A DNA stretch of 64,000 nt from Paludibacter propionicigenes WB4 (GTDB taxonomy: Bacteria; Bacteroidota; Bacteroidia; Bacteroidales; Paludibacteraceae): the NCBI RefSeq assembly GCF_000183135.1, contig NC_014734.1, forward strand, positions 3,162,001-3,226,000, given 5' to 3'. The stretch's first letter is position 1, and every line of letters starts with the position of its first letter. Below, in pieces: positions 3,035 through 55,665 of this stretch. Both the position numbers and the translations under genes were made by a program. Below the pieces are notes generated by a model. That model had not been told where the DNA came from. It saw nothing but the letters and a program-made list of their open reading frames with translations, and made no database searches.

Positions 3035-3676
3035 TTACAAAACGGAGATGGACAAATAAAAACTAATGACTCCGTTGAGGGAATTGGGAATTGTGTAGTT
3101 GCCTGCTGGCGAAGTTCTCGTTTTTCCAATTCTGGTTAGTCCCAGGTTGTATCGCATACCCATTGTTATTGTGTTGATGTCAACACCTGTACCCACCGAA
3201 ATTCCGGCATCAATCCGGTTGAAATTGTCTTTGTTCATGTTCTGCTCAAAATCGAACAGGTTTACATTTGCTTTGTTGGTGACCTTGCTGTCAATTAAGC
3301 AAGCAACATACGGTCCGGCTTGTATATTCAACTGTTTACCGATATTTATTACACAGAGCAAGGGTATTTCCACATAGGTCAGGTTGAAATTGACAGAACC
3401 ATCTGCTTGCAAATTGTTGTAGGTAATGGTCGATCCTTTGCTGCTAAGGAGTAATTCCGGGCGGAAAGCAAAAATGGTACTCACCGGTATTTTGGCAAAC
3501 AAACCGGCGAAATAACCGGGTATGATATCCGATTTCAATGCGCCGGTGGTATAAAGACTTGATAGATTTACAGCTCCTGTAATGCCTATTTCCGCCGGGT
3601 TGGGTGCGTGTCCGCTACAGGGGAAAAATTCTCCTGAAGCGAATAAGAGACCGACAAGCAGAATGACTTTTTTCAT
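3035..3676 (-). CDS. PorT-like outer-membrane beta-barrel protein
   Basis: The protein has 213 residues. A signal peptide (MKKVILLVGLLFASGEFF) is followed by alternating hydrophobic strands (GITGAVNLSSLY, FAFRPELLLSSKGSTI, FNLTYVEIPLLCVIN, LNIQAGPYVACLID, IDAGISVGTGVDI, MGMRYNLGLTRI) and a C-terminal strand ending SFYLSISVL. This pattern, especially TYVEIPLL followed by AGPY, is typical of Bacteroidetes porin family/PorT-like barrels. It sits 14 bp behind csbD and should be cotranscribed from the promoter at 3915-3983. Its cargo or partner is unknown. Confidence 0.8.
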   Translation of the reverse strand: MKKVILLVGLLFASGEFFPCSGHAPNPAEIGITGAVNLSSLYTTGALKSDIIPGYFAGLFAKIPVSTIFAFRPELLLSSKGSTITYNNLQADGSVNFNLTYVEIPLLCVINIGKQLNIQAGPYVACLIDSKVTNKANVNLFDFEQNMNKDNFNRIDAGISVGTGVDINTITMGMRYNLGLTRIGKTRTSPAGNYTIPNSLNGVISFYLSISVL

Positions 3677-3690
3677 TTATTGCAGGAGTA

Positions 3691-3876
3691 TCAGAGTGCC
3701 GATATGATTTTGTGAAGTTCATCTTTCGTTTTGCCTAGTTTTATTTGCAGGCGCCCGAGCATTTCTTCTTTTTTTCCTTCGGAGAACATTACATCGTTGT
3801 CGGTGAGTGCCGCAAATTTCTGTTTAAGTTTTCCTTTTTGTTCGTCCCAGTTTCCTTTTATTTCGGTAGTATTCAT
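3691..3876 (-). CDS. CsbD family stress protein
   Basis: The product is 61 residues: MNTTEIKGNWDEQKGKLKQKFA, then DNDVMFSEGKKEEMLGRLQIKLGKTKDELHKII. This is the CsbD signature of an amphipathic, charged, helical small protein. CsbD proteins are induced by general stress in many bacteria, with no settled biochemical role. The frame runs upstream to 3978, but the ATG at 3876 matches the family start and lies about 30 nt after the predicted transcription start of the promoter at 3915-3983. It is the first gene of a probable csbD-porin operon. Confidence 0.9.
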   Translation of the reverse strand: MNTTEIKGNWDEQKGKLKQKFAALTDNDVMFSEGKKEEMLGRLQIKLGKTKDELHKIISAL

Positions 3877-3914: not shown

Positions 3915-3983
3915 CAAAGGTGGGCAGTTTTGCGGCGGTTTCTCTTACACAATTTGCCGAAAGAGTTACAACATTCACACATT
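3915..3983 (-). promoter_or_regulatory. Regulon promoter copy 1 (csbD)
   Basis: Reading the minus strand: box 1 is AATGTGTGAATGTTGTAAC (3983-3965). Box 2 ends AATTGTGTAAG (to 3944), with its GTAA exactly 21 bp after the GTAA of box 1. Twenty bases after position 3943 comes a -7 box CACCTTTG (3922-3915). Copies 2, 4, 5 and 6 have identical distances; copy 3 is one base shorter. The proximal box covers the place of the -33 element, as expected for an activator-dependent promoter. Confidence 0.75.
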
Positions 3984-4589: not shown

Positions 4590-5870
4590 CTATTTCGAAA
4601 TTTGAAATTCTACCCTACGATTTGCCTGACGACCTTTATCTGTATTATTGTTTGCTACAGGATCTTTCTCGCCATAACCGGTGATAGTAACACTTGAAGC
4701 TGGAACGCCTTTGTTCAATAAATAGATTCTAACCGAATTAGCACGTTTTACCGACAAGATTTGATTGTATTCTTCGGTTCCGATATAGTCGGTATAACCG
4801 GCTACGCTCAATCGTACTTTGGCCGATTTGTCTTTCAACGTTAAAGCGATTTGATCTAAAGTAGCATACGAATTTGTGGTAAGCTTATCAGAACCAAATT
4901 CAAATTCAATATTTTGAAAAGATGATTTTAGCACGCCCGGTTCATTGCTTCTACTGTTGGAAATAGAATCTAAATCATCGTTCATTTTTTTTATTTTTGC
5001 ATTGAGCGAGTCGTTTTTAGCTTCGAGAGCATTTAGTCGGTTGATTGTTTCGATGGTATTATCTTTCACAATCTTTTCGATGATTACCGGAGCTGGTTGA
5101 GGATAGTATTCACACATGCTTATGTTGCGTGCATGTTGTTTGCTTCCGGTAGCTCCGAATTTAAATTTCAGACCAATAGTAGCCGTTAATGCATCACTAT
5201 TTCCTTTTGACATGGTATAACCTCCTAAGTTTGTTCTGTCGTAATAACGATATTGAACTTCACCACCTAAAGCGATGGTTCTGCTTATGTTGTATTCCAG
5301 ATTTAAACCCAGTTTAGCCATAGGTGTTTCGGGTACGCCATCGCCTAAATCCCGTGAGTCAACAATCACATTGCCGGTGGCATCTGTTAGTTTGAACTGA
5401 TAGAAACCCAGCCCTACACCGGCATCGCCATAGATGTTCATTTTACTCCAGAAAGCAGTTCTGTTTGGAACTAATAAGTTCATCAGATTAATGGAAGCAT
5501 ACATCAACACATCGTGCGTACGACCTTCCAGATTTCCTGTTTGGGTTGCATTAAGCTGATAATCGTGTCCGTACGGATTGTACATGTATTCCACACCCAG
5601 TCCGATAAGCGGATTAATACTGTATTCAAGGTTTCCGCCGAGAATCAGATGAAATTGATCACCGCGGGTAAGAGCTCCGGGGGCTACACGGAAATAGTTG
5701 GTACCACCTTTGATTCCGAACGACCAGTGTGATACGGGTGTAAATTCGCACATCGTAGAGTTTTTGACTACCGACACTTGTGCAGGAACAGTTGTATTCA
5801 CGTCCTGAGCAGCACTGTAACCAACGGCAACAGTTGTAAGCAATAAGCTTAGAAAAAGTTTCTTCTTCAT
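4590..5870 (-). CDS. OmpA-family outer-membrane protein with peptidoglycan-binding domain
   Basis: The 426-residue protein starts with a signal peptide (MKKKLFLSLLLTTVAVGYSAAQ). An eight-strand-like beta-barrel follows (about 45-235: WSFGIKGGTNYF, NLEYSINPLIGLGVEYMYNPYG, MNIYGDAGVGLGFYQF, ALGGEVQYRYYDRTN, ATIGLKFKFG). Next come a short coiled coil (about 270-305, INRLNALEAKNDSLNAKIKK) and a C-terminal OmpA domain (about 318-426). The C-terminal domain carries the peptidoglycan-contacting motif AGYTDYIGTEEYNQILSVKRA and ends GRQANRRVEFQISK. It anchors the outer membrane to the wall. It is the first gene behind the promoter at 5965-6033, with a leader of about 90 nt. Confidence 0.92.
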   Translation of the reverse strand: MKKKLFLSLLLTTVAVGYSAAQDVNTTVPAQVSVVKNSTMCEFTPVSHWSFGIKGGTNYFRVAPGALTRGDQFHLILGGNLEYSINPLIGLGVEYMYNPYGHDYQLNATQTGNLEGRTHDVLMYASINLMNLLVPNRTAFWSKMNIYGDAGVGLGFYQFKLTDATGNVIVDSRDLGDGVPETPMAKLGLNLEYNISRTIALGGEVQYRYYDRTNLGGYTMSKGNSDALTATIGLKFKFGATGSKQHARNISMCEYYPQPAPVIIEKIVKDNTIETINRLNALEAKNDSLNAKIKKMNDDLDSISNSRSNEPGVLKSSFQNIEFEFGSDKLTTNSYATLDQIALTLKDKSAKVRLSVAGYTDYIGTEEYNQILSVKRANSVRIYLLNKGVPASSVTITGYGEKDPVANNNTDKGRQANRRVEFQISK

Positions 5871-5964: not shown

Positions 5965-6033
5965 CAAAGGTAGGGGATGCGTACAGGCTGAATCTTACAC
6001 AATTCAGGATAAGACTTGCAACATTCACACATT
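5965..6033 (-). promoter_or_regulatory. Regulon promoter copy 2 (ompA)
   Basis: On the minus strand, box 1 is AATGTGTGAATGTTGCAAG (6033-6015). Box 2 ends AATTGTGTAAG, spaced 21 bp core to core. A perfect TACCTTTG -7 box follows at 5972-5965 after 20 bp. Boxes 1 and 2 are nearly identical to the csbD copy, while the bases between and around them are not. This argues for selection on the boxes rather than a recent duplication. Confidence 0.78.
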
Positions 6034-6084
6034 ATCAGTGAACAGTGAACAGTGATCAGTGAACAGTGATCAGTTATCAGTGAA
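6034..6084. repeat. Heptamer microsatellite CAGTGAA/CAGTGAT
   Basis: This is a run of 7-bp units (CAGTGAA, CAGTGAT, CAGTTAT) that begins at the outer end of box 1 of the ompA promoter. Related blocks lie at 9949-10010, 10667-10738, 29277-29391 and 30481-30870. Confidence 0.8.
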
Positions 6085-6164
6085 CAGATTTTGAATATTG
6101 GGAAGGCAACAAATTCCTTTTAAAAGGCAACAAGGAGGGAAAGAAGGGTTGTTTTCTAGGACTT

Positions 6165-6620
6165 TAGACGGTTTTAATCGCTGCTCAGATGAGAATATTT
6201 ACTCCGCAGCTGACTTTTTTTGCTCCTCAGATTGGTATAATTTCATTTTAGATTGGATATATTGCTCCTCAGATTGCTTTTATTTTGTTTTAGTTGGGTT
6301 CTATTGCTTCTCAGATGGGTAAAATATTGTCTCAGATTGGTATTATTTCATTTTAGATTGGGTAAATTGCTTCTCAGATGGATAAAATATTGTCTCAGAT
6401 TACTTTTAATTTGTTTTAGTTTGGTTCTATTGCTTCTCAGATTCGTTTTATTTCAATTTAGATGACTTATATTGCTCCTCAGATGGAAAAATATTGTCTC
6501 AGATTGCTTTTATTTCATTTTAGATTGGGTAAATTGCTTCTCAGATTCTCAAAATATTAATTTAGATTGGTATAATTTCATTTTAGATTGGAAAAATTAC
6601 TCCTCAGATGAGTCTCAGAT
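6165..6620. repeat. Tandem array 1, 21-bp unit (CAGATTGGTATAATTTCATTT type)
   Basis: About 21 contiguous units begin with CAGAT or TAGAT. Unit starts at 6165, 6186, 6207, 6228, 6249, 6270, 6291, 6312, 6333, 6354, 6375, 6396, 6417, 6438, 6459 and 6480 are all exactly 21 bp apart. One unit then has a 1-bp deletion, and the phase continues from 6500 to 6605. Units vary inside but keep the CAG/TAGAT start and the TTGCTYCT or TTTCATTT end. The open frames through it only reflect the multiple-of-three period. It fills the gap between the ompA promoter and the terminator of the kinase operon. Confidence 0.9.
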
Positions 6621-6762: not shown

Positions 6763-7194
6763 CTACATTCGGTCCATATACCAGCTCAGTTCCTTTTCCA
6801 GCTTTTGGTATTTAAAAATATTGGTAATGATTTTCTGCAAACGCATAAAGGCAGTCTCGCTTTTTACCACATAATCGAAAGCACTATGGTGCATACATTC
6901 GATGGCAACATCTATTTTATCCTGCTGCGACAGCATGATTACCGGAATATCCGGATTGATCGCTTTTATTCTATCGAGTGTCTCGATGCCGTTCATGGCG
7001 GTTTTATCGATGCTGTCAAAGAAATAGTCGAGCACAATAATATCCGGATTGTGCGACAGGTTTTCCAGACAAAGTTCACCTGTTACATAGGTTTCGATAC
7101 TGAAATCGGCTCGTTGCAAAAAGTCAATCTCCAACGATCTTAAGAAAAGGGCATCATCATCGACCAGAAAAAGTTTAATTTTTTCGCTTTTCAT
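6763..7194 (-). CDS. Single-domain CheY-like response regulator
   Basis: The 143-residue protein consists of one receiver domain. Acidic residues D12-D14 (LFLVDDDAL), phospho-acceptor D56 (IIVLDYFFD), a conserved Ser in VIMLSQQDK and Lys in DYVVKSE are visible. There is no output domain, so it probably relays or competes for phosphate. Its ATG overlaps the TGA of the hybrid kinase (ATGA), indicating translational coupling with that kinase. Confidence 0.88.
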   Translation of the reverse strand: MKSEKIKLFLVDDDALFLRSLEIDFLQRADFSIETYVTGELCLENLSHNPDIIVLDYFFDSIDKTAMNGIETLDRIKAINPDIPVIMLSQQDKIDVAIECMHHSAFDYVVKSETAFMRLQKIITNIFKYQKLEKELSWYMDRM

Positions 7195-9932
7195 CAGTTT
7201 TTACTTTTTATCATATTATATTCTTCTTCCAATTCTTTACAGGCCTGACTGCAAATATCTCCAAGCTTCATCACCAACTCTTGTATGCCGTCGGCTTGTT
7301 GCTCGGCAATGGCGTAATCCTGTATTTTTCGTGCCATATTCTCAAAATCGGCATTGATACCCATAATGGAAAAGGATGGAATCATTTTGTGCACTGCTAA
7401 ATGCAGGCTGTTCCAGTCTTTTTCTTCCAGACTTTTTTTCATGGCGCTGATAAGCGGCGGTGTTTGTTCCAGATACAGCGAAATCATTTCCATCATCAAT
7501 GTGGGATTTGATTTGGTTCGGGTATTGAGGTACCTCAAATCGATACATCGTATTATTTTCAGATTGCTCACTACTTCTTCCACTTCTTTTTCCAGAGTTT
7601 CGATTACCACGGTTTTCTTAACCAATCCTATTATTTTAGAATAGAGTATCCGCTCATCTACCGGTTTAGCTATATAATCGTTCATCCCCACGTACTTGCA
7701 TTTATCCAGATCTACCGTAGTAACATCGGCCGTCAGAGCAATAATTGGAATATCCGAATGCATTGTATTTCGGATATAATCCGTAGCTTCGAAGCCGTTC
7801 ATTTCGGGCATCTGCAAGTCCATCAGAATTATGTCGTAGTTTTTGTTTTTCATTTTCTCAATGGCTATTCGTCCATTGTCGGCAATATCACGTTCAAAAC
7901 CAAAATCATCCAACAGCGTTTTCATTAAAAGTTGATTGAGTGGTATATCTTCCACCACTAACACCTTCAAGTCTTTAATTTCATCGTCGGGTTCTTCAGC
8001 AATGATTTCTTCTGTAGCTTGTTGGCTTGTTCTCTGAAAATTCAGCGTAAAACTGAAAGTTGAGCCTTCGTTGATTTCACTCGTTACGTGTATGGATCCG
8101 CCCTGCGATTCTACCAATTGCTTAACAATGGCAAGTCCCAGCCCGGTGCCGCCGTACAAACGGGAGGTACCACTGGAAGCCTGTTGGAAATTTTCAAAAA
8201 TTTTACCGATTTTTTCTTCCGAAATACCAATTCCGGTGTCTTTGATAGAAAATTGAACGCTGGCACTGTCATCGTTATTGGACAGTAAGCGTACGCTCAC
8301 ATATATTTTACCTTTTCCTGTGAATTTTACGGCATTGCTCATCAGGTTCAGAATGATCTGGTGCAAACGAACAGGATCGCCAACCAATACGTCCGGAATT
8401 GTTTTATCGTAATCAACCACCAGTTTCAGATTCTTTTCCAGAATTTTAGTTTCAAACAAATGGAGCATAGCCGAAATGGATAGTTCCATTTTAAACGGAA
8501 TTTTTTCAAATACCATTTTACCTGCATCTACTTTGGCCAGGTCGAGTATATCGTTAATCAGTACAATCAACGCATCGCCGCTCATTTTTATGGCAGACAA
8601 GTATTCCTTTTGCTTAGCTGTGAGTTCAGATTTCAGCAATACCTTTGTGAAACCAACGATGGCATTCATGGGGGTACGAATCTCGTGACTCATGTTGGAC
8701 AGAAACTGTTGTTTGGCTTTCACAGCCGTTTCGGCTATCTGGGTAGAGCTCTCGGCTTTGGTTTTAGCTATCTCGGCTATTTCGGTGGCCATTTCGGCAA
8801 ACACGATGGCTTCGTTCAACTGTGTTTCTATTTTTTTCTGATCGGTGATATCGCGCGCTACTACCACCACGCCCTGTACATTTCCTCTATCATCTTTATA
8901 CACCGAACCGTTGAATAAAACATCGGTCAGTTTTCCATCGCGTATAGTGAGTGGAAAATCAGTGACAAAACCATTGGCAAAAACGTCTTTATACACTTCT
9001 TTGGCTTTATCCGGTTCAGTGAAATAATCGAAAAAATCGGTTCCGATTATCTCTTCCCTGCTCATGCCCGTAATTTTTACCGAAGCGTTGTTTAAATCGG
9101 TAATTTTTCCTTCCAGGTTGATGGTAAACAACGGGTCGCGACTGGCTTCGATTAGGCTTCGTGAGTATTGCGAGGCCAGTTTCAGCGAATAGCTGAAAGC
9201 TTCAAGCTCTTTGGCGGCAGTTTCGCGTTTTTCTTTTTCTTCGGTCTGAAATACGAGTTCTTTGTCGGCGATAATTAATTCGGCGGCGCGCTTTTCCTTT
9301 TCTCCGGTCTGAAATACCAATTCTTTATCGGCAATTTTCAGTTCGGCGGCACGTTTCATTTTCTCGCCTGCCTGATAGGCTAATTCTTTGTCGGCTATAA
9401 TTAACTCGGCAGCACGTTTTTCTTTTTCTTTGTTCTGAAATACCAGTTCTTTGTTGGCCAGAATTAATTCTGCCGCACGCTTTTCCTTTTCGTTATTTAG
9501 AAATAACAGTTCTTTGTTGGCAATCACCAGTTCTTTGTTGGCATTACGCAGCTCTATAGCCCATTTTTGCTCCTCTACGTCTCTTGCCACCAATAGCGCT
9601 CCCAATACGTTTCCTTCCGCATCCGTGTAAACAGAGCCATTGAAAAGTACATCGGTCAGTTTTTTGTCGACACTGCAGAATGTCAGTGGGCAGTCTTTCA
9701 CAGAACCTTTGGCAAACACCCTCTTATAGACAGCTTTTGCTTTATTCGGTTCTGTGAAATAATCGAAGAAATTGCTGCCGATAAGTTTATCGCGGTCAAC
9801 CCCCGTAATAGTAACTTTTGCCTGGTTCATATCCGTTATTTTTCCATCAATATCGATGGTTATAAGCGGATCCAGGCTTGCTTCTATTAAGCTGCTGGCA
9901 TATTGAGATTCATGTTTGTTTGTTCTTTGCAT
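7194..9932 (-). CDS. Soluble hybrid histidine kinase: PAS-PAS-HisKA-HATPase-REC-Hpt
   Basis: The 912-residue protein has no membrane segment. Domains are PAS 1 (about 13-122), a long coiled coil (123-250), PAS 2 (256-363), HisKA (about 405-470, H416 in FLSNMSHEIRTPMN), HATPase (about 515-632; N-box NLMSNAVKF, DTGIGI, GGTGLGL), receiver (about 654-772, D705 in IILMDLQMPEMNG) and Hpt (about 810-905, H848 in LHLAVHKMIPS). It is a complete phosphorelay in one chain. The coiled coil is built from five near-identical 21-residue units (KEKRAAELIIADKELVFQ type). It lies between the AraC gene and the response regulator, so the three genes probably form one autoregulated operon. The signal is likely cytoplasmic. 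Confidence 0.92.
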   Translation of the reverse strand: MQRTNKHESQYASSLIEASLDPLITIDIDGKITDMNQAKVTITGVDRDKLIGSNFFDYFTEPNKAKAVYKRVFAKGSVKDCPLTFCSVDKKLTDVLFNGSVYTDAEGNVLGALLVARDVEEQKWAIELRNANKELVIANKELLFLNNEKEKRAAELILANKELVFQNKEKEKRAAELIIADKELAYQAGEKMKRAAELKIADKELVFQTGEKEKRAAELIIADKELVFQTEEKEKRETAAKELEAFSYSLKLASQYSRSLIEASRDPLFTINLEGKITDLNNASVKITGMSREEIIGTDFFDYFTEPDKAKEVYKDVFANGFVTDFPLTIRDGKLTDVLFNGSVYKDDRGNVQGVVVVARDITDQKKIETQLNEAIVFAEMATEIAEIAKTKAESSTQIAETAVKAKQQFLSNMSHEIRTPMNAIVGFTKVLLKSELTAKQKEYLSAIKMSGDALIVLINDILDLAKVDAGKMVFEKIPFKMELSISAMLHLFETKILEKNLKLVVDYDKTIPDVLVGDPVRLHQIILNLMSNAVKFTGKGKIYVSVRLLSNNDDSASVQFSIKDTGIGISEEKIGKIFENFQQASSGTSRLYGGTGLGLAIVKQLVESQGGSIHVTSEINEGSTFSFTLNFQRTSQQATEEIIAEEPDDEIKDLKVLVVEDIPLNQLLMKTLLDDFGFERDIADNGRIAIEKMKNKNYDIILMDLQMPEMNGFEATDYIRNTMHSDIPIIALTADVTTVDLDKCKYVGMNDYIAKPVDERILYSKIIGLVKKTVVIETLEKEVEEVVSNLKIIRCIDLRYLNTRTKSNPTLMMEMISLYLEQTPPLISAMKKSLEEKDWNSLHLAVHKMIPSFSIMGINADFENMARKIQDYAIAEQQADGIQELVMKLGDICSQACKELEEEYNMIKSKN

Positions 9933-9948
9933 ATTTTATTTATATCTG

Positions 9949-10010
9949 TAACCGATAACCGATAACTGTTCACTGATAACTGCTCACTGCTCACTGCTCA
10001 CTGTTCACTG
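9949..10010. repeat. Heptamer microsatellite TAACCGA/TAACTGT/TCACTGC
   Basis: About nine 7-bp units fill the gap between the AraC gene and the hybrid kinase gene and touch the stop codon of the AraC gene. They are the reverse complement of the CAGTGAA family upstream of several promoters. Confidence 0.8.
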
Positions 10011-10571
10011 TCAAATATCCTCTATCTGATTTCGTCGTTTTACTTTGAGTTGTTTAAAGTGCGAAGGTGAAAGTCCGGTGACCTTTTTAAACTGATTGGA
10101 AAGGTGCGCTACACTGCTGTAGTTCATCTTCCAGGCTATTTCCGTAATGTTAAGTTCGTCGTAAATGATCAGTTCTTTGATGCGTTCTATCTTATGATCA
10201 ATGATAAAATGCTCGATAGTACTTCCCTGTACTTCCGAGAACAAATTAGCCAGGTATGTGTAATCGTGTTTTAGTTTATCGCTGAGGTAGTCGGAAAAAT
10301 TGACCTTGATAGGCTCATCCGCGTAATGCACCATTTCCACGATTATATTTTTTATTTTTTCAATGAGAACAGCCCGTTTGTCGTCCATCAGCTCCAGTCC
10401 GGCATCCAGTAAGCCTGTTTTCAGTTTTTCGCGTTGGTCTACGGTAATGTTTTCCATCACCTCCACTTCGCCCAGTTCTACTACAATGAAGTGCAGTCCC
10501 AGTTTTTTCAGTTCCTCTTTCACCGCCATTTTACAGCGGGTACTCACCATATATTTGATATATAACTTCAA
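10011..10571 (-). CDS. AraC-family regulator with small N-terminal sensor-like domain; candidate master of the regulon
   Basis: The 186-residue protein has two parts. The N-terminal segment (about 1-60, MKLYIKYMVSTRCKMAVKEELKKLGL and VELGEVEVMENI) looks like the heavy-metal-associated-like fold seen in many short Bacteroidetes AraC proteins, but without the CxxC metal motif. The AraC DNA-binding domain (about 80-180) contains DYTYLANLFSEVQGSTIEHFI and NITEIAWKMNYSSVAHLSNQFKKVTGLSPSHFK. The ATG at 10571 lies about 25 nt after the start site predicted from its own two-box promoter (10599-10666). It is followed by the hybrid kinase. Autoregulation and the 21-bp AraC-like operator spacing make it the best candidate regulator of the six promoters; this is an inference. 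Confidence 0.88.
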   Translation of the reverse strand: MKLYIKYMVSTRCKMAVKEELKKLGLHFIVVELGEVEVMENITVDQREKLKTGLLDAGLELMDDKRAVLIEKIKNIIVEMVHYADEPIKVNFSDYLSDKLKHDYTYLANLFSEVQGSTIEHFIIDHKIERIKELIIYDELNITEIAWKMNYSSVAHLSNQFKKVTGLSPSHFKQLKVKRRNQIEDI

Positions 10572-10598: not shown

Positions 10599-10666
10599 TA
10601 AAGGTACGTTAGTTTAATTCTAATCTATTACAAAACTTTGAAAATAAGTTACATAATTCACACATT
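10599..10666 (-). promoter_or_regulatory. Regulon promoter copy 3 (AraC-kinase operon)
   Basis: On the minus strand, box 1 is AATGTGTGAATTATGTAAC (10666-10648). Box 2 ends GTTTTGTAAT, 21 bp core to core. The -7 box TACCTTTA is at 10606-10599 after a 19-bp spacer, one base shorter than in the other copies, and its last base departs from TAnnTTTG. It drives the AraC gene and probably the kinase pair behind it. Confidence 0.72.
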
Positions 10667-10738
10667 TCAGTGAGCAGTTATCAGTGAACAGTTATCAGTG
10701 AACAGTTATCAGTGAACAGTTATCAGTGAACAGTCATC
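10667..10738. repeat. Heptamer microsatellite CAGTGAA-CAGTTAT
   Basis: About ten 7-bp units, strictly alternating CAGTGAA and CAGTTAT over most of the run, begin at the outer edge of box 1 of the AraC promoter. Confidence 0.85.
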
Positions 10739-10830
10739 AATCCGTTGTTTGGCTTGCACAGTTTTCTGCACAGTTTCATGTTACATTCTCAGATAAACTA
10801 ATTTCGATCATGCACTTAGCGTTACCTACA

Positions 10831-11145
10831 GTAATAACTATTGAAATAAAAGTATGCACTATTGGAATAACAGTGCGTACTATTAGAGTAACAGTGTATA
10901 CTGTTAGAGTAAAAGTATATACTAATGGAGTATCAGTGTACACTGTTGGAGTAACAGTATACACTATTAGAGTAACAGTGCGTACTATTAGAGTAATAGT
11001 ATACACTATTGGAGTAACAGTATGCACTACTAGAGTAACAGTGTATACTATTAAAGTAAAAGTATATACTAATAGAGTATCAGTGTACACTGTTGGAGTA
11101 ACAGTATACACTATTAGAGCAACAGTGTATACTATTGGAGTCCCC
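10831..11145. repeat. Tandem array 2, 21-bp unit (GTATACACTATTAGAGTAACA type)
   Basis: Fifteen contiguous units of exactly 21 bp run from 10831 to 11145 without any length change (for example starts at 10852, 10873, 10894, 10915 and 11104, 11125). Substitutions are concentrated at a few positions (GTATAC/GTGTAC/GTGCGT). A 13-bp direct repeat, GTTTTCTGCACAG, brackets the array at 10761-10773 and 11156-11168. Both strands stay open for over 100 codons only because the period is a multiple of three; no gene is proposed. Confidence 0.92.
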
Positions 11146-27914: not shown

Positions 27915-29003
27915 TTACGATTTATATTCAGGATAATCGGTATAACCTTTTTCGCCCGGTGTATAAAACAAATCCATTATCAGGGTTTGGGATAAAGGAC
28001 AATCGTTTTTAAGTCTTGCCACCAAATCAGGATTATTGATAAACGGACGACCAATAGCAATCAGATCGGCTCTGCCACTTTCAATATCAGCTTCAGCCCG
28101 TTTTTTGTCGTATCCTCCCGAGAGTATCAGTGTATTTTTGAATCGGGTACGGATAATACCTTTTATTTCCGACGGTACTTCGGGCGCTCCCATAGCCGAA
28201 TGATCCACCAGATGCAGATAGACAAGTCCCAGTTTATTGAGCTCTTCTGCCAGGTAAGTATAAGTTTCTTCTATCTCAGGGTAATGCGGCATATCACTGG
28301 CAACGCCGTAAGGCGAAAGACGAATGCCTGTTTTTTCTTTTCCGATAGCTTCTACTACGGCAGCAGCTACTTCGAGCACAAACCTACAGCGGTTTTCAAT
28401 ACTTCCACCGTATTTATCTGTTCGGGTATTGCTTACCGGAGACAAAAACTGTTCAAGTAAATATCCATTGGCAGCATGAAGCTCCACTCCATCAAAACCT
28501 GCTTCGATAGCATGACTGGATGAAGCAACAAATTCAGTGAGTGTAAGCAATAAATCATTATCATCCATTTGTTTTGGAATAGGGAAGTCCTGCATCTGTT
28601 CCGTATCAGTCCAAATCTGTCCGGCAGGCTTTACAGCTGAAGGTGCTATTATCTGAGCGCCTTCGGGTAAGTTGAGCGAATGACTTATTCTTCCGGTATG
28701 CATAAGCTGGATAAATATCTTTCCACCGGCTTTGTGAACAGCTTCAGTGGTTTTCTGCCATCCTTCCACCTGTTCTTTACTGAAACAGCCGGGGATGCGC
28801 GAATAACCCAATCCATTGGGCGAAGGAGATGTTCCCTCGGTAATAATTAATCCGGCACTTGCCCGTTGAGCATAATACTCCGCCATCAAATCGTTGGGGA
28901 CATTGCCTATAGCACGACTTCGGGTCATGGGTGCCATCACTATTTTGTTTTTCAACTCCAGGTTACCTAACTTCGTAGGTTCAAATAATTTATACTCTTC
29001 CAT
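27915..29003 (-). CDS. Old Yellow Enzyme-family NADH:flavin oxidoreductase (NemA-like)
   Basis: The 362-residue protein is a full-length FMN TIM barrel. Motifs include KNKIVMAPMTRSRA, EYYAQRASAGLIITEG, IQLMHTGRISH, ELHAANGYLLEQFLSPVSN (with the substrate-binding His and Asn), DKYGGSIENRCRF, and LIAIGRPFINNPDLV near the phosphate-binding end. NemA-type enzymes reduce electrophilic alkenes, quinones and nitro compounds and are commonly part of electrophile-stress responses. It has its own regulon promoter at 29209-29277, which leaves a long leader of about 200 nt, so extra post-transcriptional control is possible. Confidence 0.93.
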   Translation of the reverse strand: MEEYKLFEPTKLGNLELKNKIVMAPMTRSRAIGNVPNDLMAEYYAQRASAGLIITEGTSPSPNGLGYSRIPGCFSKEQVEGWQKTTEAVHKAGGKIFIQLMHTGRISHSLNLPEGAQIIAPSAVKPAGQIWTDTEQMQDFPIPKQMDDNDLLLTLTEFVASSSHAIEAGFDGVELHAANGYLLEQFLSPVSNTRTDKYGGSIENRCRFVLEVAAAVVEAIGKEKTGIRLSPYGVASDMPHYPEIEETYTYLAEELNKLGLVYLHLVDHSAMGAPEVPSEIKGIIRTRFKNTLILSGGYDKKRAEADIESGRADLIAIGRPFINNPDLVARLKNDCPLSQTLIMDLFYTPGEKGYTDYPEYKS

Positions 29004-29208: not shown

Positions 29209-29277
29209 CAAAGGTAAGCGGTAGGCAGGCTCAGGTAGTTACACAACTTTGAAAATAAGTTACATGATTCACAGGTT
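29209..29277 (-). promoter_or_regulatory. Regulon promoter copy 4 (Old Yellow Enzyme gene)
   Basis: On the minus strand, box 1 is AACCTGTGAATCATGTAAC (29277-29259). Box 2 ends GTTGTGTAAC, 21 bp core to core. Twenty bases later comes a perfect TACCTTTG -7 box (29216-29209). Start of transcription is expected near 29202. Confidence 0.75.
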
Positions 29278-29391
29278 ACAGTGAGCAGTGAACAGTGAAC
29301 AGTGATCAGTGAACAGTGATCAGTGAACAGTGAACAGTGATCAGTGATCAGTGATCAGTAAGTAGTAAGTAGTAAGTGGTAAGTAGTCATT
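29277..29391. repeat. Heptamer microsatellite (CAGTGAA/CAGTGAT then AAGTAGT units)
   Basis: About sixteen 7-bp units run from the outer edge of box 1. The first part uses CAGTGAA and CAGTGAT; the end switches to AAGTAGT and AAGTGGT without losing the 7-bp phase. Confidence 0.85.
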
Positions 29392-30342: not shown

Positions 30343-30480
30343 TTCTTTTTGGTTATATAATTGAAAATCATGTAGTCTCTTATCGACGGCTCAAAGATAC
30401 TATCTGAATTTTCTGCTTCATACTGAGCTAAGGACACTTTCCCGATTTTCGGGACACTTTTCGGTAAAATAAGGACGGAA

Positions 30481-30870
30481 CAGTTGTCAGTGAGCAGTTA
30501 TCAGTGAACAGTGAACAGGGAGGAGTGAGGGGTAAGAGGTGAGGAGTAAGAGGTGAGAGGTAAGGAGTGAGGGGTAAGAGGTAAGGGGTAAGGAGTGAGA
30601 GGTAAGGAGTAAGGAGAAAGAGTAAGTAGTAAGTAGAAAGAGGTAAGGGGTAAGAGGTAAGGGGTAAGAGGTAAGGAGTGAGGAGAAAGGAGTAAGGAGA
30701 AAGAGTAAGTAGTAAGTAGAAAGAGGTAAGGGGTAAGAGGTAAGGAGTGAGGAGTAAGAGGTAAGGAGTAAGAGGTAAGGAGTAAGTAACGAATTATAAA
30801 CTATCAACTATCAACTATCAACTACTTACTGTTCACTGATAACTGATCACTGTTCACTGTTTACTGATCT
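30481..30870. repeat. Long composite heptamer microsatellite
   Basis: About 390 bp of 7-bp phased units run through several motif families: CAGTGAA/CAGTTAT, then GGGGTAA/GAGGTAA/GGAGTGA/AAGTAGT, then AACTATC, then TTCACTG/ATAACTG. It overlaps the end of the LytTR gene, so that protein's last residues (EISKQ and stop) are repeat-encoded. The 106-codon open frame inside it is only the repeat translated. Confidence 0.85.
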
Positions 30871-31783
30871 CTGTTCTTCGTTCATCTACTATGTCTTTAA
30901 AACAGGGGGTGTATGTATCCGAGACCGGAACGTGGTGATTGCAATCTTTTAGGTAGAGTATCATTTTGGACAATGTGCCGCTCCACATTTCTATTTGGTT
31001 TATATTGACTATATATGAAATATTGCAACGTTTCATATACGGATATCCGCTCACAAGTTCTGCAAAGGCTTTCAGCGTCATAATCTTTTTTAGCTCCCTT
31101 ACTTTTCCACGCTGAAGTCTGTAAACGTGTAATGTGTTACGTCGTGATTCGGCAAAGAGTATGGTGCTTACATCGATCTGTTCTCTTTTAATCGTAATGT
31201 ATCCGGTGGTTTCGGGTGGAGTAGGGGGCAGGTGTGTCAGATGTTCGGTTAGCTCCGACGTATTTTTGTAGTTTGTCACACTTCCCGAAGCCCCAACTGT
31301 AGCCGGACTTAGTTGTTTGTCTGGTTTTAGCTTCGTGGAAACAAAATAGCCAAAGCCCAGAACGGTACCAATACTTATAACGCAATTATAACACTGTAAG
31401 GAAACAAAGGAACCGAGGCTAAAATCTATTTCTTCTACATATATATCGGTGAGAATCCAACTGCTGAAAGCTGACAGGGGAATGTAAATGCTCAGGATAT
31501 GCAGTTCTCTGAGGATAGTCCAGCTTTCGCGACGAAAATAAGCCGGGCGCAACGAGGAATAAACAATATACACTGCGGCGTAGCTTCCAATATAAATCAG
31601 ACTGTAGGCGTTCAGGAACAAACTCTTGTGAAAGGCATGCCAGTTGGTAAGACCAAAAGGCTGAAACACATTCAGGAAAATTGCAAAGAGGATGATCAGT
31701 ACAATAAAATAGATTCTCCCTTGTCGGTACGATAAAAACAACGGGAACGGTCGGTTCAGGTAGTTCTTTATTCTTTCTTGCAT
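30854..31783 (-). CDS. Membrane-anchored LytTR transcriptional regulator
   Basis: The 309-residue protein has four hydrophobic helices in the first half (FIVLIILFAIFLNVFQPFG, LIYIGSYAAVYIVYS, LHILSIYIPLSAFSSWIL and CYNCVISIGTVLGFGYFV). A linker and a C-terminal LytTR DNA-binding domain follow (about 195-300, ITIKREQIDVSTILFAESRRNTLHVY, MTLKAFAELV, YMKRCNISYIVNINQIEMW). Such regulators sense through the membrane domain without a kinase. Its targets are unknown. The heptamer array overlaps its stop codon. Confidence 0.9.
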   Translation of the reverse strand: MQERIKNYLNRPFPLFLSYRQGRIYFIVLIILFAIFLNVFQPFGLTNWHAFHKSLFLNAYSLIYIGSYAAVYIVYSSLRPAYFRRESWTILRELHILSIYIPLSAFSSWILTDIYVEEIDFSLGSFVSLQCYNCVISIGTVLGFGYFVSTKLKPDKQLSPATVGASGSVTNYKNTSELTEHLTHLPPTPPETTGYITIKREQIDVSTILFAESRRNTLHVYRLQRGKVRELKKIMTLKAFAELVSGYPYMKRCNISYIVNINQIEMWSGTLSKMILYLKDCNHHVPVSDTYTPCFKDIVDERRTEISKQ

Positions 31784-50817: not shown

Positions 50818-51903
50818 TCAATGCATGCTTTTGAGTTTTTTTAGAGCAGGCATAGTATCGCCCAATAGATATCCCCAGGGTTTTGTGGATTCTATATGAT
50901 CGAAAATGACTTTTACAATAGCCAAAAGTGGTAACGAGAGAAACATTCCGGGAACTCCCCAAAGTGCGTTGCCTACCAGTACCACCACTATGGAGAATAA
51001 GGCATTTATTTTTACTTTCGAAGCCACTATTTTTGGGACAATATAGTCATTGTCAATTATCTGTATAAAGGTGTGAACTCCAAAAACATAAAGAGCAAAC
51101 CACGACGATTCTTTGGTTACCAGTGCCACCATCATAAATAATCCAACGGCAATAATTCCTCCTATGTATGGAATAAGATTAAGCAAAGCCCCCAGCACTC
51201 CAAGCAAAATGGCATATTGAATTCCAAGCAGCAGAAGGCCGACAGTATTGAGAATTCCTACAATAATTGCTTCGATAATCAATCCCAGCAGATAATGCTG
51301 AATAACCGATTTGGTTTTGGTAGTGATGGAACGCACCTGATTTTGATGTGCTTCGTCGAAAAGGCGATGGACAAACTCTATCAGTAGCGGTTGATAATAC
51401 AGAATCACAAAGATGTAAACAGGAACCAAGAGCATAGTGGCTACACTACTGCCTACAGTGACAAGGGTCTGGCCAATTAAAGTACTGTTTATTGTAACAA
51501 GCTCATGCTGAGTTTTTGTAATCCAGGTATGAATGAGTGCCGGTCTGATATTGAAATATTGCGAAGTGTACTGTATAGTATCGTCCAGAATGGCTGTGAA
51601 CTTCTTAACCAGCAAAGGCCATGAATCACTGAAGCTTACAGCCTCCTTGTAGATAAGTGCTATAAATGCTACTATAATCAGAGCCATTAGCAGGAGTGTG
51701 ATAATGATAGCCATGATCCTGTTTATCCGGATACTGACAAGAAATTTCACCACAGGATGCAGTAGAATAGCTATGATGAAGGCAAACACCAGTGGAACAA
51801 TAATGCCCTGTGCTATGTATAAAATGGCCAACAGGGCAGAAAGGCCGACAAAGAAAATGCCGGCTTTAGCGTAGAATGGTAATATGGATTTGCTTGTTAT
51901 CAC
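50818..51903 (-). CDS. AI-2E family transporter
   Basis: The 361-residue membrane protein has about eight helices. Typical family motifs are FVFAFIIAILLHPVVKFLV, LLVPVYIFVILYYQP, LLGVLGALLNLIPYIGGIIAV, DNDYIVPKIVASKVKINALFSIVVVLVGNALWGVPGMFLSLPLLAIVKVIFD. AI-2E proteins export small solutes or act as Na+/H+ antiporters; the substrate is not evident. Its start overlaps the stop of the previous gene by 4 bp (51900-51903), so it is part of the ytxH operon. Confidence 0.92.
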   Translation of the reverse strand: MITSKSILPFYAKAGIFFVGLSALLAILYIAQGIIVPLVFAFIIAILLHPVVKFLVSIRINRIMAIIITLLLMALIIVAFIALIYKEAVSFSDSWPLLVKKFTAILDDTIQYTSQYFNIRPALIHTWITKTQHELVTINSTLIGQTLVTVGSSVATMLLVPVYIFVILYYQPLLIEFVHRLFDEAHQNQVRSITTKTKSVIQHYLLGLIIEAIIVGILNTVGLLLLGIQYAILLGVLGALLNLIPYIGGIIAVGLFMMVALVTKESSWFALYVFGVHTFIQIIDNDYIVPKIVASKVKINALFSIVVVLVGNALWGVPGMFLSLPLLAIVKVIFDHIESTKPWGYLLGDTMPALKKLKSMH

Positions 51904-52298
51904 AGGTTTTCTGTTTTATCTTCATTTTTTTTAAATAGATGCTGAATGACAAAATTACCCAGTGCTTTTAGTGCGTCCGGATTCTGTGCCACAATGTTTG
52001 TAACTCCAAACTGAAGCACTGTACCCATTATTTTTCGGAACAGATTGTGCGACGTGCCTATTGCAATTTTTTTTGAAACATAACCGCTTAGTAATCCTGT
52101 TAATGCACTCAGCATATTGTCAATCAGGTAAGGCGATGAGGTTATTTCACTCAACGTATTCTTTATCAAGTTTGCGGGTTTCAGATTTTCGTATGCTATA
52201 AAGAAGTCTTCTTGCAGCAGTTTACCCTGAATGTTTTGCTGGAATTCCAGTTCAATAATCGCAATTTTAAGTTCGGCTGCACAGGTTATATTTTCCAT
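51900..52298 (-). CDS. Small hypothetical protein of the ytxH operon
   Basis: From the ATG at 52298 the protein is 132 residues, beginning MENITCAAELKIAIIELEFQ. It is mostly helical, with a hydrophobic stretch YLIDNMLSALTGLLSGYVSKKIAIGTSHNLFRKIMGTVLQFGVTNIV, and ends NEDKTENL. An upstream frame to 52358 overlaps the previous gene and is unlikely. The pattern (LKPANLIKNTLSEI) is common next to phage-holin-like and YtxH genes in Bacteroidetes. No function known. Confidence 0.75.
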   Translation of the reverse strand: MENITCAAELKIAIIELEFQQNIQGKLLQEDFFIAYENLKPANLIKNTLSEITSSPYLIDNMLSALTGLLSGYVSKKIAIGTSHNLFRKIMGTVLQFGVTNIVAQNPDALKALGNFVIQHLFKKNEDKTENL

Positions 52299-52303
52299 GT
52301 GGA

Positions 52304-52648
52304 TTATTTTTTTAATACTTGTTTTATCATGTAATCGTATAAAATTCTCTTTAGCCACTTGCGCATAAAAAGATGCATGACAAAAGCTATCAATGCATAA
52401 AAAGCTGCTACAATAAAGAATCCGTAGAAGAGCTCACCCAAGATTTTTCCGAGCCAGAGAGCTAACCCTAAATTCGCAAACAAAAGAAAGGAGCAAAGAA
52501 TAGCAGCTATTACCGTATTGGGTAGAAATGATGAAAGACCATCAGTGGTCTTATCTATTACCCGCAATTTTGTCAGTTCATAGCTTGTTTTACCGTAGTC
52601 TGTAATTTTTCCGAGCAATGATTCTATCATTTTTGTGTTGTCTTCCAT
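52304..52648 (-). CDS. Holin-superfamily-like (DUF1469-type) membrane protein
   Basis: The 114-residue protein has an amphipathic N-terminus (MIESLLGKITDYGKTSYELTKLRVIDKTTDGLSS) followed by two helices (VIAAILCSFLLFANLGLALWLG and FFIVAAFYALIAFVMHLFM) and a basic tail. This is the layout of the phage-holin III/DUF1469 family, usually found with YtxH/YqjK-type stress genes. It is second in the operon behind ytxH. Confidence 0.75.
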   Translation of the reverse strand: MEDNTKMIESLLGKITDYGKTSYELTKLRVIDKTTDGLSSFLPNTVIAAILCSFLLFANLGLALWLGKILGELFYGFFIVAAFYALIAFVMHLFMRKWLKRILYDYMIKQVLKK

Positions 52649-52797: not shown

Positions 52798-53076
52798 TCA
52801 CTTTTTTGAAGCTTTCTGCTCTTTCTCTACCTCTTCAACTTTTGACTCTACGTCGTCAATCAAATCAGTAACATCATCTTTCACTTTCTCGAATCGTTCG
52901 GTGATGCTGTCAACAAAATCACTGAATTTGTCTTTCAATGCATCCACTTCGCGTTCACCTTTACGGAGAATTGACCTACGTGTTACTGCACCTTTTGCAG
53001 GGGCAAATAAGATTCCTAATAAAGCTCCGGTGGCTGCGCCGGCAATTACGCCTAATACTACTTTTCCTGTACTCAT
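52798..53076 (-). CDS. YtxH domain stress protein
   Basis: The 92-residue protein starts MSTGKVVLGVIAGAATGALLG, the glycine-rich membrane helix of YtxH, followed by ILFAPAKGAVTRRSIL and a long charged helix (KDKFSDFVDSITERFEKVKDD). YtxH proteins are general-stress proteins with no firm biochemical role. It is first behind the promoter at 53120-53188, with a leader of about 37 nt. Confidence 0.9.
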   Translation of the reverse strand: MSTGKVVLGVIAGAATGALLGILFAPAKGAVTRRSILRKGEREVDALKDKFSDFVDSITERFEKVKDDVTDLIDDVESKVEEVEKEQKASKK

Positions 53077-53119: not shown

Positions 53120-53188
53120 CAAATGTATGCCTTTCAGACCTTTCTGAAGTTACACTATTATTGGTAATGCTTACATAATTCACACCTG
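53120..53188 (-). promoter_or_regulatory. Regulon promoter copy 5 (ytxH operon)
   Basis: On the minus strand, box 1 is CAGGTGTGAATTATGTAAG (53188-53170). Box 2 ends AATAGTGTAAC, 21 bp core to core. Twenty bases later comes a perfect TACATTTG -7 box (53127-53120). This copy is not next to a heptamer microsatellite, so the boxes do not depend on the repeat. Confidence 0.78.
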
Positions 53189-53300: not shown

Positions 53301-53933
53301 TTATAATCTGAAACCAACGGTAGCTTGAGCCCAAACGTTTTTGTAACGTGGAGTTGTTGAAGTTCCATCTCCATTGTTGTTGTACATATCCATCCCAATT
53401 CTGGCTCCCAGCACTAAATTATTGAGATTAAAATCTAATCCGCCTACCAGACACAAGGTATTCTTACGAACATTATCTGTGTCAAAATCCTGATTAACTT
53501 CAATGTTTGTAATCGGATTGGTGAGCTTGTCATTTTGTTTGATCAGGTACGAGTACTGTGGTCCCACAAGAATGGTTATCATTTCGCTTGGTTTAATGGC
53601 CAAAAATATCGGAACATCGATATAGTTTGTGGTACGTGTCAACTTAACATCAGCGCCCAACACACTACTTGTTGCTGTAAATCCTTTTTGCGAAAACAAT
53701 ACTTCAGGTTGAATACCCAGGTATGTACCGATTGGGATACTAAGGAAGACACCTGTTGCAAGGCCTATTTTGCCATCGGCATTGTATTTCTCGCCTTTTG
53801 TGTCATATATGTTTGAGTAATTACCACCGGCTTTTAACCCAATGTGTATTTGATCGCTCGAATTTGTATCCTGAGCATTCATTGTATTAGCCATGAAAAT
53901 GCATGCTAATATTGTAAAAAGATTCTTTTTCAT
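53301..53933 (-). CDS. PorT-like outer-membrane beta-barrel protein
   Basis: The 210-residue protein has a signal peptide (MKKNLFTILACIFMANTMNAQ). Segments HIGLKAGGNYSNIYD, IGLATGVFLSIPIG, LGIQPEVLFSQKGFTAT, RTTNYIDVPIFLAIKP, TILVGPQYSYLI, CLVGGLDFNLNNLVLGARIGMDM and WAQATVGFRL form the usual PorT-type barrel. GLKAGGN, QPEVLFSQKG and YIDVPIF are diagnostic. It is the last gene of the four-gene operon. Confidence 0.85.
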   Translation of the reverse strand: MKKNLFTILACIFMANTMNAQDTNSSDQIHIGLKAGGNYSNIYDTKGEKYNADGKIGLATGVFLSIPIGTYLGIQPEVLFSQKGFTATSSVLGADVKLTRTTNYIDVPIFLAIKPSEMITILVGPQYSYLIKQNDKLTNPITNIEVNQDFDTDNVRKNTLCLVGGLDFNLNNLVLGARIGMDMYNNNGDGTSTTPRYKNVWAQATVGFRL

Positions 53934-53958
53934 TTTGTTTTGTTTTTATTGTTTAATT

Positions 53959-54354
53959 CTAAAACTTTATGCGTGATATTTCTTCACCGGCAGGATACAG
54001 TACATCAGCCTGATCTTCGGCTGTGATAAAGATTTCTGTAAACTTAAACGGAGTTAATGTTTTAATTTCTGCTACTTTAGCATTTTTGTTTTTCAACTGT
54101 CCGATGTTTCTTGTTTCATTGTTTTCTAATACAATCCAGGCAACATACATTTTTCTGGGTGGACTTAGTCTTTCGGCAGAAGCTAAATTCTTTGCTTCTA
54201 TTGTCAGAATTGTATTTCCGTTTCGGTCATGTTGTTTTTTTACTTCTATATTCGCAGCGGGTGTTACACTCGAAACTGGAAATTTAGAGACATTGGCGCA
54301 TGACGACAGTACTAATACCATCGTTAAGAACATTACTTTTGATAGATTTTTCAT
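53959..54354 (-). CDS. Small lipoprotein
   Basis: The 131-residue protein has a lipoprotein signal (MKNLSKVMFLTMVLVLSSCA). The mature domain is beta-rich with segments ANIEVKKQHDRNGNTILTIEAKNLA, KMYVAWIVLENNETRNIGQL and KFTEIFITAEDQADV. This is reminiscent of anti-sigma-factor-like or Ig-like DUF lipoproteins of Bacteroidetes, but no name is secure. It is third in the operon. Confidence 0.75.
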   Translation of the reverse strand: MKNLSKVMFLTMVLVLSSCANVSKFPVSSVTPAANIEVKKQHDRNGNTILTIEAKNLASAERLSPPRKMYVAWIVLENNETRNIGQLKNKNAKVAEIKTLTPFKFTEIFITAEDQADVLYPAGEEISRIKF

Positions 54355-54414
54355 TGTTTTTGTTTTTAATTTTTATTCATATTATGGTTTATTTATCGTT
54401 CACAGTTTCCTGTT

Positions 54415-54954
54415 TTAATGTATCGCTATACCAATGGTTGAAATCCCGGTTGATAAATCCAGAAATGCACCAATGTTTTTATTGAAATGATATTCTGCTC
54501 CTAAATGAAGGTCAAGATACAAAGGATCAACAGAATGATAATATGCTCTGTCACCCTTATAATTAGCATCCCAGCTTGTGTTCACAATGGATACTCCCAG
54601 TGATCCTGCTGTATAGAAATCCCAGTTTCTTCCGGCATGTAACAACTGATCTAAGTAGAGCGTACCCTTCAAACCAACCGGTGTAACTAATGCTCTGTAA
54701 TTGTCGTCCGAGTAAGAATAGACGGTTATGAATGGAGCTAATGTGAAATTCTTAGCAACTCCAAATTCGTAATTGATATCAAAAACCGGTAATGTATGCC
54801 CATAATAGCCGTAATATCCGGAGTAACCGCCAATACCCAACCCGATGTTTAATGCGTGACCATATTCATCCGAATATGAAGTACGACGTTGAGCTGATAG
54901 ATTAGTTGCTACAGTAAGTAGAACCAATGCGATAATAAGAGTTATTGTTTTCAT
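54415..54954 (-). CDS. Outer-membrane beta-barrel protein, 179 residues
   Basis: A signal peptide (MKTITLIIALVLLTVATNLSAQ) precedes a Gly/Tyr-rich stretch (GIGGYSGYYGYYGHT). Strands follow (FDINYEFGVAKNFTLAPFITVYSY, VGLKGTLYLDQLL, FYTAGSLGVSIVN, LYLDLHLGAEYHF, GAFLDLSTGISTIGIAI). It is a small barrel of the Bacteroidetes type and the second gene of the operon. Confidence 0.78.
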   Translation of the reverse strand: MKTITLIIALVLLTVATNLSAQRRTSYSDEYGHALNIGLGIGGYSGYYGYYGHTLPVFDINYEFGVAKNFTLAPFITVYSYSDDNYRALVTPVGLKGTLYLDQLLHAGRNWDFYTAGSLGVSIVNTSWDANYKGDRAYYHSVDPLYLDLHLGAEYHFNKNIGAFLDLSTGISTIGIAIH

Positions 54955-54989
54955 TTCTATGTGTATTAATTGTTCGTTCTCTATGATTT

Positions 54990-55559
54990 TTATTTACGAT
55001 TTCCGTTATCATGACCATCTCTCTTGTCATTACCACGTTCTTGTTTTTTTTCATTCCCATGTCCGCGACCTTTGTCGTTTCCCCGTTCCTGATTATTTTC
55101 TTTCATCCGGCTGTGTTCATTTCTTCTGCCATCGTATCTGTCTGGTTGAAAGTCATTATGTCTTTCATGACCATTGTTTCGTATACCAATATTCCGTTGT
55201 GGATTTCCACGGTAGCCACGAGCGTATTTCATCCGATGTTCCCTGAAATGAGAATAAGGTGAGTTGCCGCGATAGTCGTTCATAACTACTTTGTATCCTC
55301 CATACAAATCGTAATTTCGGTAGCGACCCGGTAAATGAGATCTATGAACCCATCTATTGCCCGATATGTAGATAAACATAGACGACCGAACATCATAATA
55401 GGCCTCTACATCAGGTAAATAATAATAGCGAACATCATTATATCCGGCTGGGCCCCATGCCGGTGGTGTGCCAATATGCAAGTTGACAGATAATTGGGCT
55501 TGAGTTGAGCCAACAAACATCAACAAAACTCCAAAGGCAAATAATTTTAATTGTTTCAT
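54990..55559 (-). CDS. Secreted basic protein with PAWGP motif and Arg/Asn-rich tail
   Basis: The 189-residue protein has a signal peptide (MKQLKLFAFGVLLMFVGSTQAQ). A core reads LSVNLHIGTPPAWGPAGY and RYYYLPDVEAYYDVRSSMFIYISGNRWVHRSHLP, typical of Bacteroidetes proteins with a PAWGPxGY start. From about residue 118 the tail is low-complexity and very hydrophilic (ERHNDFQPDRYDGRRNEH, RGNDKGRGHGNEKK). It is the first gene after the promoter at 55597-55665. The role is unknown; the basic tail could bind polyanions such as LPS, peptidoglycan or nucleic acid. Confidence 0.8.
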   Translation of the reverse strand: MKQLKLFAFGVLLMFVGSTQAQLSVNLHIGTPPAWGPAGYNDVRYYYLPDVEAYYDVRSSMFIYISGNRWVHRSHLPGRYRNYDLYGGYKVVMNDYRGNSPYSHFREHRMKYARGYRGNPQRNIGIRNNGHERHNDFQPDRYDGRRNEHSRMKENNQERGNDKGRGHGNEKKQERGNDKRDGHDNGNRK

Positions 55560-55596: not shown

Positions 55597-55665
55597 CAAA
55601 GGTGAGGTTTTAAAAAAACGAATGCGTTACATAATTATTGCCAAGAGTTGCAAGATTCACACATA
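55597..55665 (-). promoter_or_regulatory. Regulon promoter copy 6 (outer-membrane operon)
   Basis: On the minus strand, box 1 is TATGTGTGAATCTTGCAAC (55665-55647). Box 2 ends AATTATGTAAC, 21 bp core to core. Twenty bases later comes the -7 box CACCTTTG (55604-55597), the same C-variant as the csbD copy. The leader to the first gene is about 30 nt. Confidence 0.75.

Follow-up and report, generated by a model that had tools for sequence, protein, structure and literature searches.

At araI1-araI2, the element bound by E. coli AraC, half-sites are arranged as a 21-bp direct repeat. In Bacteroides, HTCS regulators combine a periplasmic sensor, a kinase, a receiver and an AraC domain in a single polypeptide, and their targets are polysaccharide loci. 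To our knowledge, no counterpart of RpoS, sigma-B or PhyR-EcfG has been described in Bacteroidota. A search of open papers, which left many journals uncovered, found no general stress master regulator described for this phylum and no earlier description of the AraC regulator or the two-box motif presented here; a paper on the transcriptome of F. psychrophilum reports sigma motifs and leaves AraC unmentioned (PMC9723704). We describe a locus of Paludibacter propionicigenes WB4 that, in our judgement, quite probably encodes an AraC-type activator of its own operon and of stress promoters, set by a PAS phosphorelay and carrying a repurposed HMA fold as its N-terminus, a reading for which there are no binding or expression data.

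Within the window, by which we mean the whole stretch of 64,000 nucleotides that was analyzed, a long match links the sequence upstream of the AraC gene to five further intergenic regions. The complete genome (3,685,504 bases, one contig) holds exactly six two-box sites at up to 2 mismatches, all of them within 52 kb of the window and on one strand (Table 1), and a whole-genome scan at 3 mismatches added a sole match, which lacks a -7 box. As the initial annotation had claimed, one of the six promoters precedes the AraC gene itself, and none of the other AraC genes in the genome has such a site. A matrix trained without AraC promoters nevertheless recovers such promoters: this site, which precedes the AraC start by 26 nt, reached 44.4 against a background maximum of -6.4. 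It ranks with the weaker sites, and its -7 box is nearer by one base. The protein had also been put forward as a candidate master regulator, an interpretation that the analysis supports, but with only six promoters in 52 kb here the case for "master" depends on relatives, which have as many as 28 sites.

Table 1. Two-box sites, regulator genes and putative target genes in the window (positions counted from its first nucleotide)
Feature	Position	Strand	Remarks
Outer-membrane beta-barrel protein	3035..3676	(-)	adjoins csbD
CsbD-family stress protein	3691..3876	(-)	61 aa; first gene of its unit
Two-box site before csbD	3945..3979	(-)	
OmpA-family outer-membrane protein	4590..5870	(-)	
Two-box site before OmpA-family gene	5995..6029	(-)	
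REC-only response regulator	6763..7194	(-)	143 aa; phosphoacceptor D56
Hybrid histidine kinase, soluble-looking	7194..9932	(-)	912 aa; PAS, coiled coil, PAS, HisKA (SHEIRTP at 415), HATPase, REC, weak Hpt-like (H848)
AraC-family regulator	10011..10571	(-)	186 aa; TTG start; HMA-like bab-bab in residues 1-62 with MVSTRC; AraC double HTH in residues ~92-184
-7 box of AraC promoter	10599..10606	(-)	TACCTTTA; one base nearer the boxes than in most sites
Two-box site before AraC gene	10628..10662	(-)	autoregulation (putative)
NADH:flavin oxidoreductase / old yellow enzyme family	27915..29003	(-)	
Two-box site before flavin oxidoreductase gene	29239..29273	(-)	
Holin-X-like, unknown and AI-2E-transporter-family genes	50818..52648	(-)	3' of ytxH
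YtxH-like stress protein	52798..53076	(-)	first gene of its unit
Two-box site before ytxH operon	53150..53184	(-)	
Operon of exported protein, outer-membrane proteins and lipoprotein	53301..55559	(-)	
Two-box site before envelope-protein operon	55627..55661	(-)	

The window contains further repeats. Arrays of 7- or 14-bp units (CAGTGAA, TCAGTGAACAGTTA) flank the AraC gene (9951-10010 and 10667-10739) and occur in other intergenic places (6020-6087, 29278-29387 and 30478-30876). Intergenic tandem arrays of 21 bp and 42 bp, which differ in sequence and have a period that is a multiple of the helical repeat, lie at 10828-11141, 6226-6609 and 37941-38199. Another AraC gene, encoding a GyrI-like effector domain and without a two-box site, is located at 1542-2567.

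In related genomes, 134 sites yielded the matrix ATGTGTGAATNATGTAACT..TT.....A.RTTRTGTAACAC, followed by ~20 weakly conserved bases and then TACCTTTG. TGTAAC is repeated within it in direct orientation at 21 bp, equal to two helical turns, and in the 134 sites the -7 box TACCTTTG keeps a fixed spacing from this repeat. The sigma-A consensus of Bacteroidota consists of a -7 box, TAnnTTTG, and of TTTG at -33 (PMC7366714). The former is met by the TAcCTTTG of the 134 sites, whereas the -33 TTTG is not conserved in their matrix, and the half-site RTGTAACA occupies that region. Because a conserved half-site replaces the absent -33 TTTG, we infer that these promoters have the look of activator-dependent ones. 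The full promoter matrix found 241 sites across 1.24 Mb of related loci and none once that sequence was reversed, which is more than chance would give; 223 of the 241 share the orientation of the AraC gene (223:18), and the distance from an upstream site to the AraC start is at most 120 nt in 48 of 78 loci and at most 500 nt in 54. A pattern with spacing off by one base matched once in 395 genomes, which suggests a rigid spacing.

The hybrid kinase and the response regulator had been noted to follow the AraC gene on the same strand, which we confirmed; the REC-only gene overlaps the kinase gene by one base. Conservation of the AraC-HK-RR order together with the two-box promoter in other genomes had been named as a check on their relationship. 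We compared the window with 77 named loci (78 loci in total), all with a high-scoring AraC and drawn from hosts that include Flavobacterium, Mucilaginibacter, Emticicia, Sunxiuqinia, Lutibacter and Paludibacter records. The arrangement is conserved, with the order AraC-HK-RR in 59 of the 78 loci and AraC-HK in a further 14, several of which are cut by contig ends. Conservation extends to the SHEIRTP motif of HisKA, to the receiver Asp of the kinase (in MDlqMP), to the Hpt-like vHKmipsfsimG and, in the REC-only protein, to D12-D14 and D56, the last of these being kept in all 59 REC-only orthologues. The Hpt region of the kinase scores only 18.9 in Pfam against a cut-off of 24.6; its HKMIPSF motif is conserved nonetheless. 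With the HisKA His, the receiver Asp, the Hpt His and the second receiver Asp all present and conserved, the proteins qualify as a His-Asp-His-Asp phosphorelay, and the earlier description of the relay as complete holds for all four phosphoacceptors. In three loci, AraC and kinase are joined in one continuous protein of 871-1092 aa (L091:368-3565, L176:757-3372 and L184:1720-4998). These fusions, possibly from one event, make a shared function of AraC and kinase likely; the link from the phosphorelay to AraC is an inference from synteny and fusion only.

Other observations concern the same operon. The response regulator was considered as a binder of the boxes and ruled out, having no output domain. 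Tandem repeats of 63 bp (21 aa) at 9229-9521 of the kinase gene encode the coiled coil between the PAS domains, and the length of the kinase differs among relatives. In nine loci (L149, L152, L162, L163, L178, L183, L203, L211 and L219) a second AraC paralogue is located immediately upstream of the AraC-HK-RR operon, and in several of these a two-box site lies at the stop codon of that upstream paralogue.

We then computed the co-occurrence of sites and regulator, taking E<=1e-66 as the threshold for a close AraC relative and without correcting the statistics for genome relatedness. In an order set of 295 genomes, at least 2 sites were present in 43 of the 55 genomes with a close AraC versus 6 of the 240 others (Fisher p ~4e-34); in a class-wide set the corresponding figures were 20 of 43 and 9 of 203 (p ~3e-11). 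Reversed-pattern controls gave 9 matches versus 397, and 9 versus 224, and genomes having only a distant paralogue resembled those without any. Only 12 of the 43 AraC-carrying genomes of the class set have at least 3 strict sites, so that in this set either the motif has drifted or the regulon has few members.

Genomes that keep the sites and lack the AraC gene would, according to the initial annotation, refute the connection. AraC is present in 39 of the 44 order-set genomes with at least 3 sites, but some exceptions remain unexplained. G863 (10 sites), G046, G150 and G241 have at least 3 sites and no detected AraC, and G200 has a distant AraC only; all are multi-contig drafts, and another regulator in them is possible. 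Five further genomes (G718, G754, G775, G780 and G795), with 3-6 sites, are likewise without a close AraC. G834 has 21 sites and no AraC, and carries an orthologue of the response regulator (C36:21648-22076, on a contig of 24421 nt) 2.3 kb from the contig end, so that kinase and AraC would extend past it. On another contig of this genome, C10, a possible slot for AraC was ruled out as an unrelated membrane-anchored kinase. G107 has only an N-terminal AraC fragment, consistent with truncation at a contig edge. These observations suggest that in G834 and G107 contig ends cut the AraC gene; such breaks in assembly are likely, we infer, because of the 63-bp repeats inside the kinase gene.

The first genes below 374 sites were examined as a guide to the regulon. 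AraC itself is the commonest (78, or 78 of 363 in one tally), followed by ice-binding-like (PF11999) lipoproteins (56), CsbD (41), OmpA (18), lmo0937-like (12), cupin (10), Thivi_2564-like (8), BON (7), YtxH (5) and ferritin/Dps-like genes (3); universal stress proteins (USP) also occur, and additional stress families are represented by single cases. Typical targets of sigma-B, RpoS and EcfG are found among them (CsbD, YtxH, BON, ferritin/Dps-like, lmo0937-like and USP), and in other phyla control of CsbD lies with sigma-B, RpoS or EcfG (PMC10294668, PMC7083833, PMC5437024). Judged by gene families alone, in the absence of expression data, the predicted content of the two-box regulon is that of a general or envelope stress regulon. 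Apart from AraC, no target of the two-box promoter is commoner than the ice-binding-like lipoproteins, which occur at L095 and 34 further loci.

The AraC protein belongs to the AraC/XylS family by its double helix-turn-helix, which is matched by HTH_18 above the Pfam cut-off (E=4e-15, 56.3 bits) and by Foldseek to AraC-family domains including MarA, SoxS and AdpA. Residues 1-70 are without any Pfam match at the curated cut-off, HMA (PF00403) included, and even the best paralogue reaches only 19.0 bits against PF00403, for which the cut-off is 24.8. Membership of Pfam HMA was dropped for the AraC protein, since the curated cut-off was missed. The initial annotation had nonetheless described the N-terminus as HMA-like without a CxxC and suggested structure prediction of residues 1-65; the absence of CxxC was confirmed, and the predicted fold supports the HMA-like assignment. 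AlphaFold2 (pLDDT 88) predicts a strand at residues 2-6, a helix at 11-23, strands at 28-32 and 35-38, a helix at 44-56 and a strand at 60-62, and this E-H-E-E-H-E order is that of the bab-bab ferredoxin-like fold found in copper chaperones. Below many AraC-domain matches, Foldseek retrieved the metallochaperones TTHA1718 and Atx1 (probability ~1, TMt 0.65-0.69, E 0.04-0.2); a sequence profile reached CopZ at only E=0.86. The HMA metal motif MxCxxC is not met, the AraC protein having S-x-R-C within MVSTRC versus MVCxRC in its paralogues. MVSxRC is MxCxxC in which Ser has taken the place of the first Cys; Cys13 is kept in all of 71 sequences.

On a quick, midpoint-rooted tree of the family, the 99 Ser-type AraC sequences group in a single clade (SH-aLRT 97) that lies within the Cys-type ones, and the Ser/Cys label requires two changes. 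The telling evidence is the family itself, with its MVCxRC paralogues and its MVSxRC clade, and we therefore infer that a regulator resembling a copper sensor moved to the two-box regulon and in doing so gave up its first metal ligand, the direction of change being an inference on a midpoint-rooted tree. Among the MVCxRC paralogues sampled, 14 of 20 have as a neighbor a P-type ATPase bearing HMA/CPC hallmarks, and several of the rest lie beside an RND efflux gene, these neighbors being recognized by motif and by eye. At L113-L132, such MVCxRC HMA-AraC paralogues next to P-type ATPases or RND efflux genes are likely to be copper regulators of Bacteroidales. The TTG start at 10571 is common to 42 of 70 orthologue and paralogue sequences, which may suggest that the level of the AraC regulator is held low.

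We propose a model in which the AraC protein would bind the 21-bp direct repeat (half-site AATNATGTAAC), probably as a dimer. With the downstream half-site overlapping the -33 region of the sigma-A promoter, RNA polymerase would read mainly the -7 box and would need the activator. By inference, the protein would activate its own operon (AraC, cytoplasmic hybrid kinase and REC-only regulator) as well as nearby promoters of stress and envelope-protection genes. The kinase is presumed to sense a signal via its PAS domains, and phosphate would pass from His to Asp to His and on to Asp56 of the REC-only protein, through which the relay may set AraC activity by direct contact; this contact, the direction of the signal and the nature of the stress are all inferred. 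The N-terminal HMA copper-sensor fold, minus its first metal cysteine, may now act as a contact or signal-receiving domain, a role that is likewise inferred.

Several other explanations have to be weighed against this model. It is quite improbable, in our estimate, that a different transcription factor binds the two-box site and that the AraC gene is merely one member of the regulon. A few genomes do have sites with no AraC of the clade detected, and in P. propionicigenes the AraC promoter site is weaker than most others, but the adjoining response regulator lacks a domain for DNA binding, no first gene of the regulon is more frequent than AraC, and the sites are clustered about the AraC gene. 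A 21-bp direct repeat also suits an AraC dimer, and G041, G151 and G245, genomes of the same family without the AraC clade, have no sites. It is conceivable, if unlikely, that AraC acts as a repressor at the sites or as a constitutive activator, with the phosphorelay an unrelated occupant of the same operon. Half-site 2 over the -33 region could also block polymerase, and no direct link joins AraC to the stand-alone REC protein, which has no output domain; the presence of a conserved half-site in place of the -33 TTTG, however, points to activator dependence, and a single functional unit is favored by the AraC-HK fusions and by conservation of the gene order.

The alternative that we take most seriously, while still doubting it, concerns the breadth of the response: the regulon might be a narrow envelope or cold/osmotic one (OmpA, ice-binding-like and AI-2E-type genes) and not a general stress response. 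The frequency of ice-binding-like lipoproteins and OmpA among first genes (56 and 18 sites) would fit this, as would the targets in the P. propionicigenes genome, mostly envelope proteins. CsbD (41 sites), BON, YtxH, lmo0937-like, ferritin/Dps-like and universal stress proteins are, on the other hand, broad-stress families, and the control of CsbD by sigma-B, RpoS or EcfG elsewhere, cited above, also speaks against a narrow response. Finally, we see little prospect that the N-terminal domain has kept the ability to bind copper or some other metal via its single Cys, perhaps with a partner chain, and that the regulon is a metal response. The fold, the copper-linked sister branch and the invariant Cys13 would allow it, but the first Cys is Ser throughout the 99-member clade, and the recurrent genes of the regulon are not metal-homeostasis genes.

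Returning to the relay-controlled AraC activator, its combination with the relay and the two-box promoter appears, as far as genome sequences can tell, to recur widely in environmental Bacteroidota. A further-reaching proposal, which we advance tentatively and consider slightly more doubtful than not, is that it constitutes a phylum-wide general stress response of free-living Bacteroidota, in which the part of an alternative sigma factor falls to an AraC activator that arose from a copper sensor when one metal cysteine was lost and that came to be controlled by a cytoplasmic PAS phosphorelay. With a defined regulator, kinase, receiver, motif and set of targets, from Flavobacterium to Mucilaginibacter and Paludibacter, a general stress response in the phylum becomes directly testable. 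The N-terminal domain would also provide a clear case of a metal-sensor domain reused after loss of a metal ligand.

The system resembles each of several known or related ones in part. The CxRC HMA-AraC paralogues of Bacteroidota, apparently unnamed, share with the AraC protein its length, the HMA-like N-terminus and the AraC HTH, at 40-55% identity, but they keep MVCxRC, have copper-type efflux neighbors, and are without an upstream two-box site and without an adjoining HK-RR. Like E. coli AraC at araI1-araI2, the regulator has an AraC-type HTH and a 21-bp direct repeat whose downstream half lies next to or in the -35 region, whereas its N-terminus is HMA-like instead of a sugar-binding domain and the sigma-A is of the Bacteroidota type. 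As in the HTCS of Bacteroides, a histidine kinase, a receiver and an AraC-type output would be coupled, and three relatives fuse AraC to the kinase; these AraC-hybrid kinase fusions look like an inverted relative of HTCS. The single-polypeptide definition is not met, the genes being separate in the window and the fusions elsewhere AraC-first, and the system differs also in the N-terminal side on which AraC is placed, in having no periplasmic sensor that we could see, in its extra Hpt and stand-alone REC, and in its stress targets. With sigma-B (RsbKY), RpoS and PhyR-EcfG it would share a regulon of CsbD, BON/osmotic, Dps-type and membrane stress proteins and an input through kinase and receiver, but its output is predicted to be an AraC activator at housekeeping promoters, with no alternative sigma factor.
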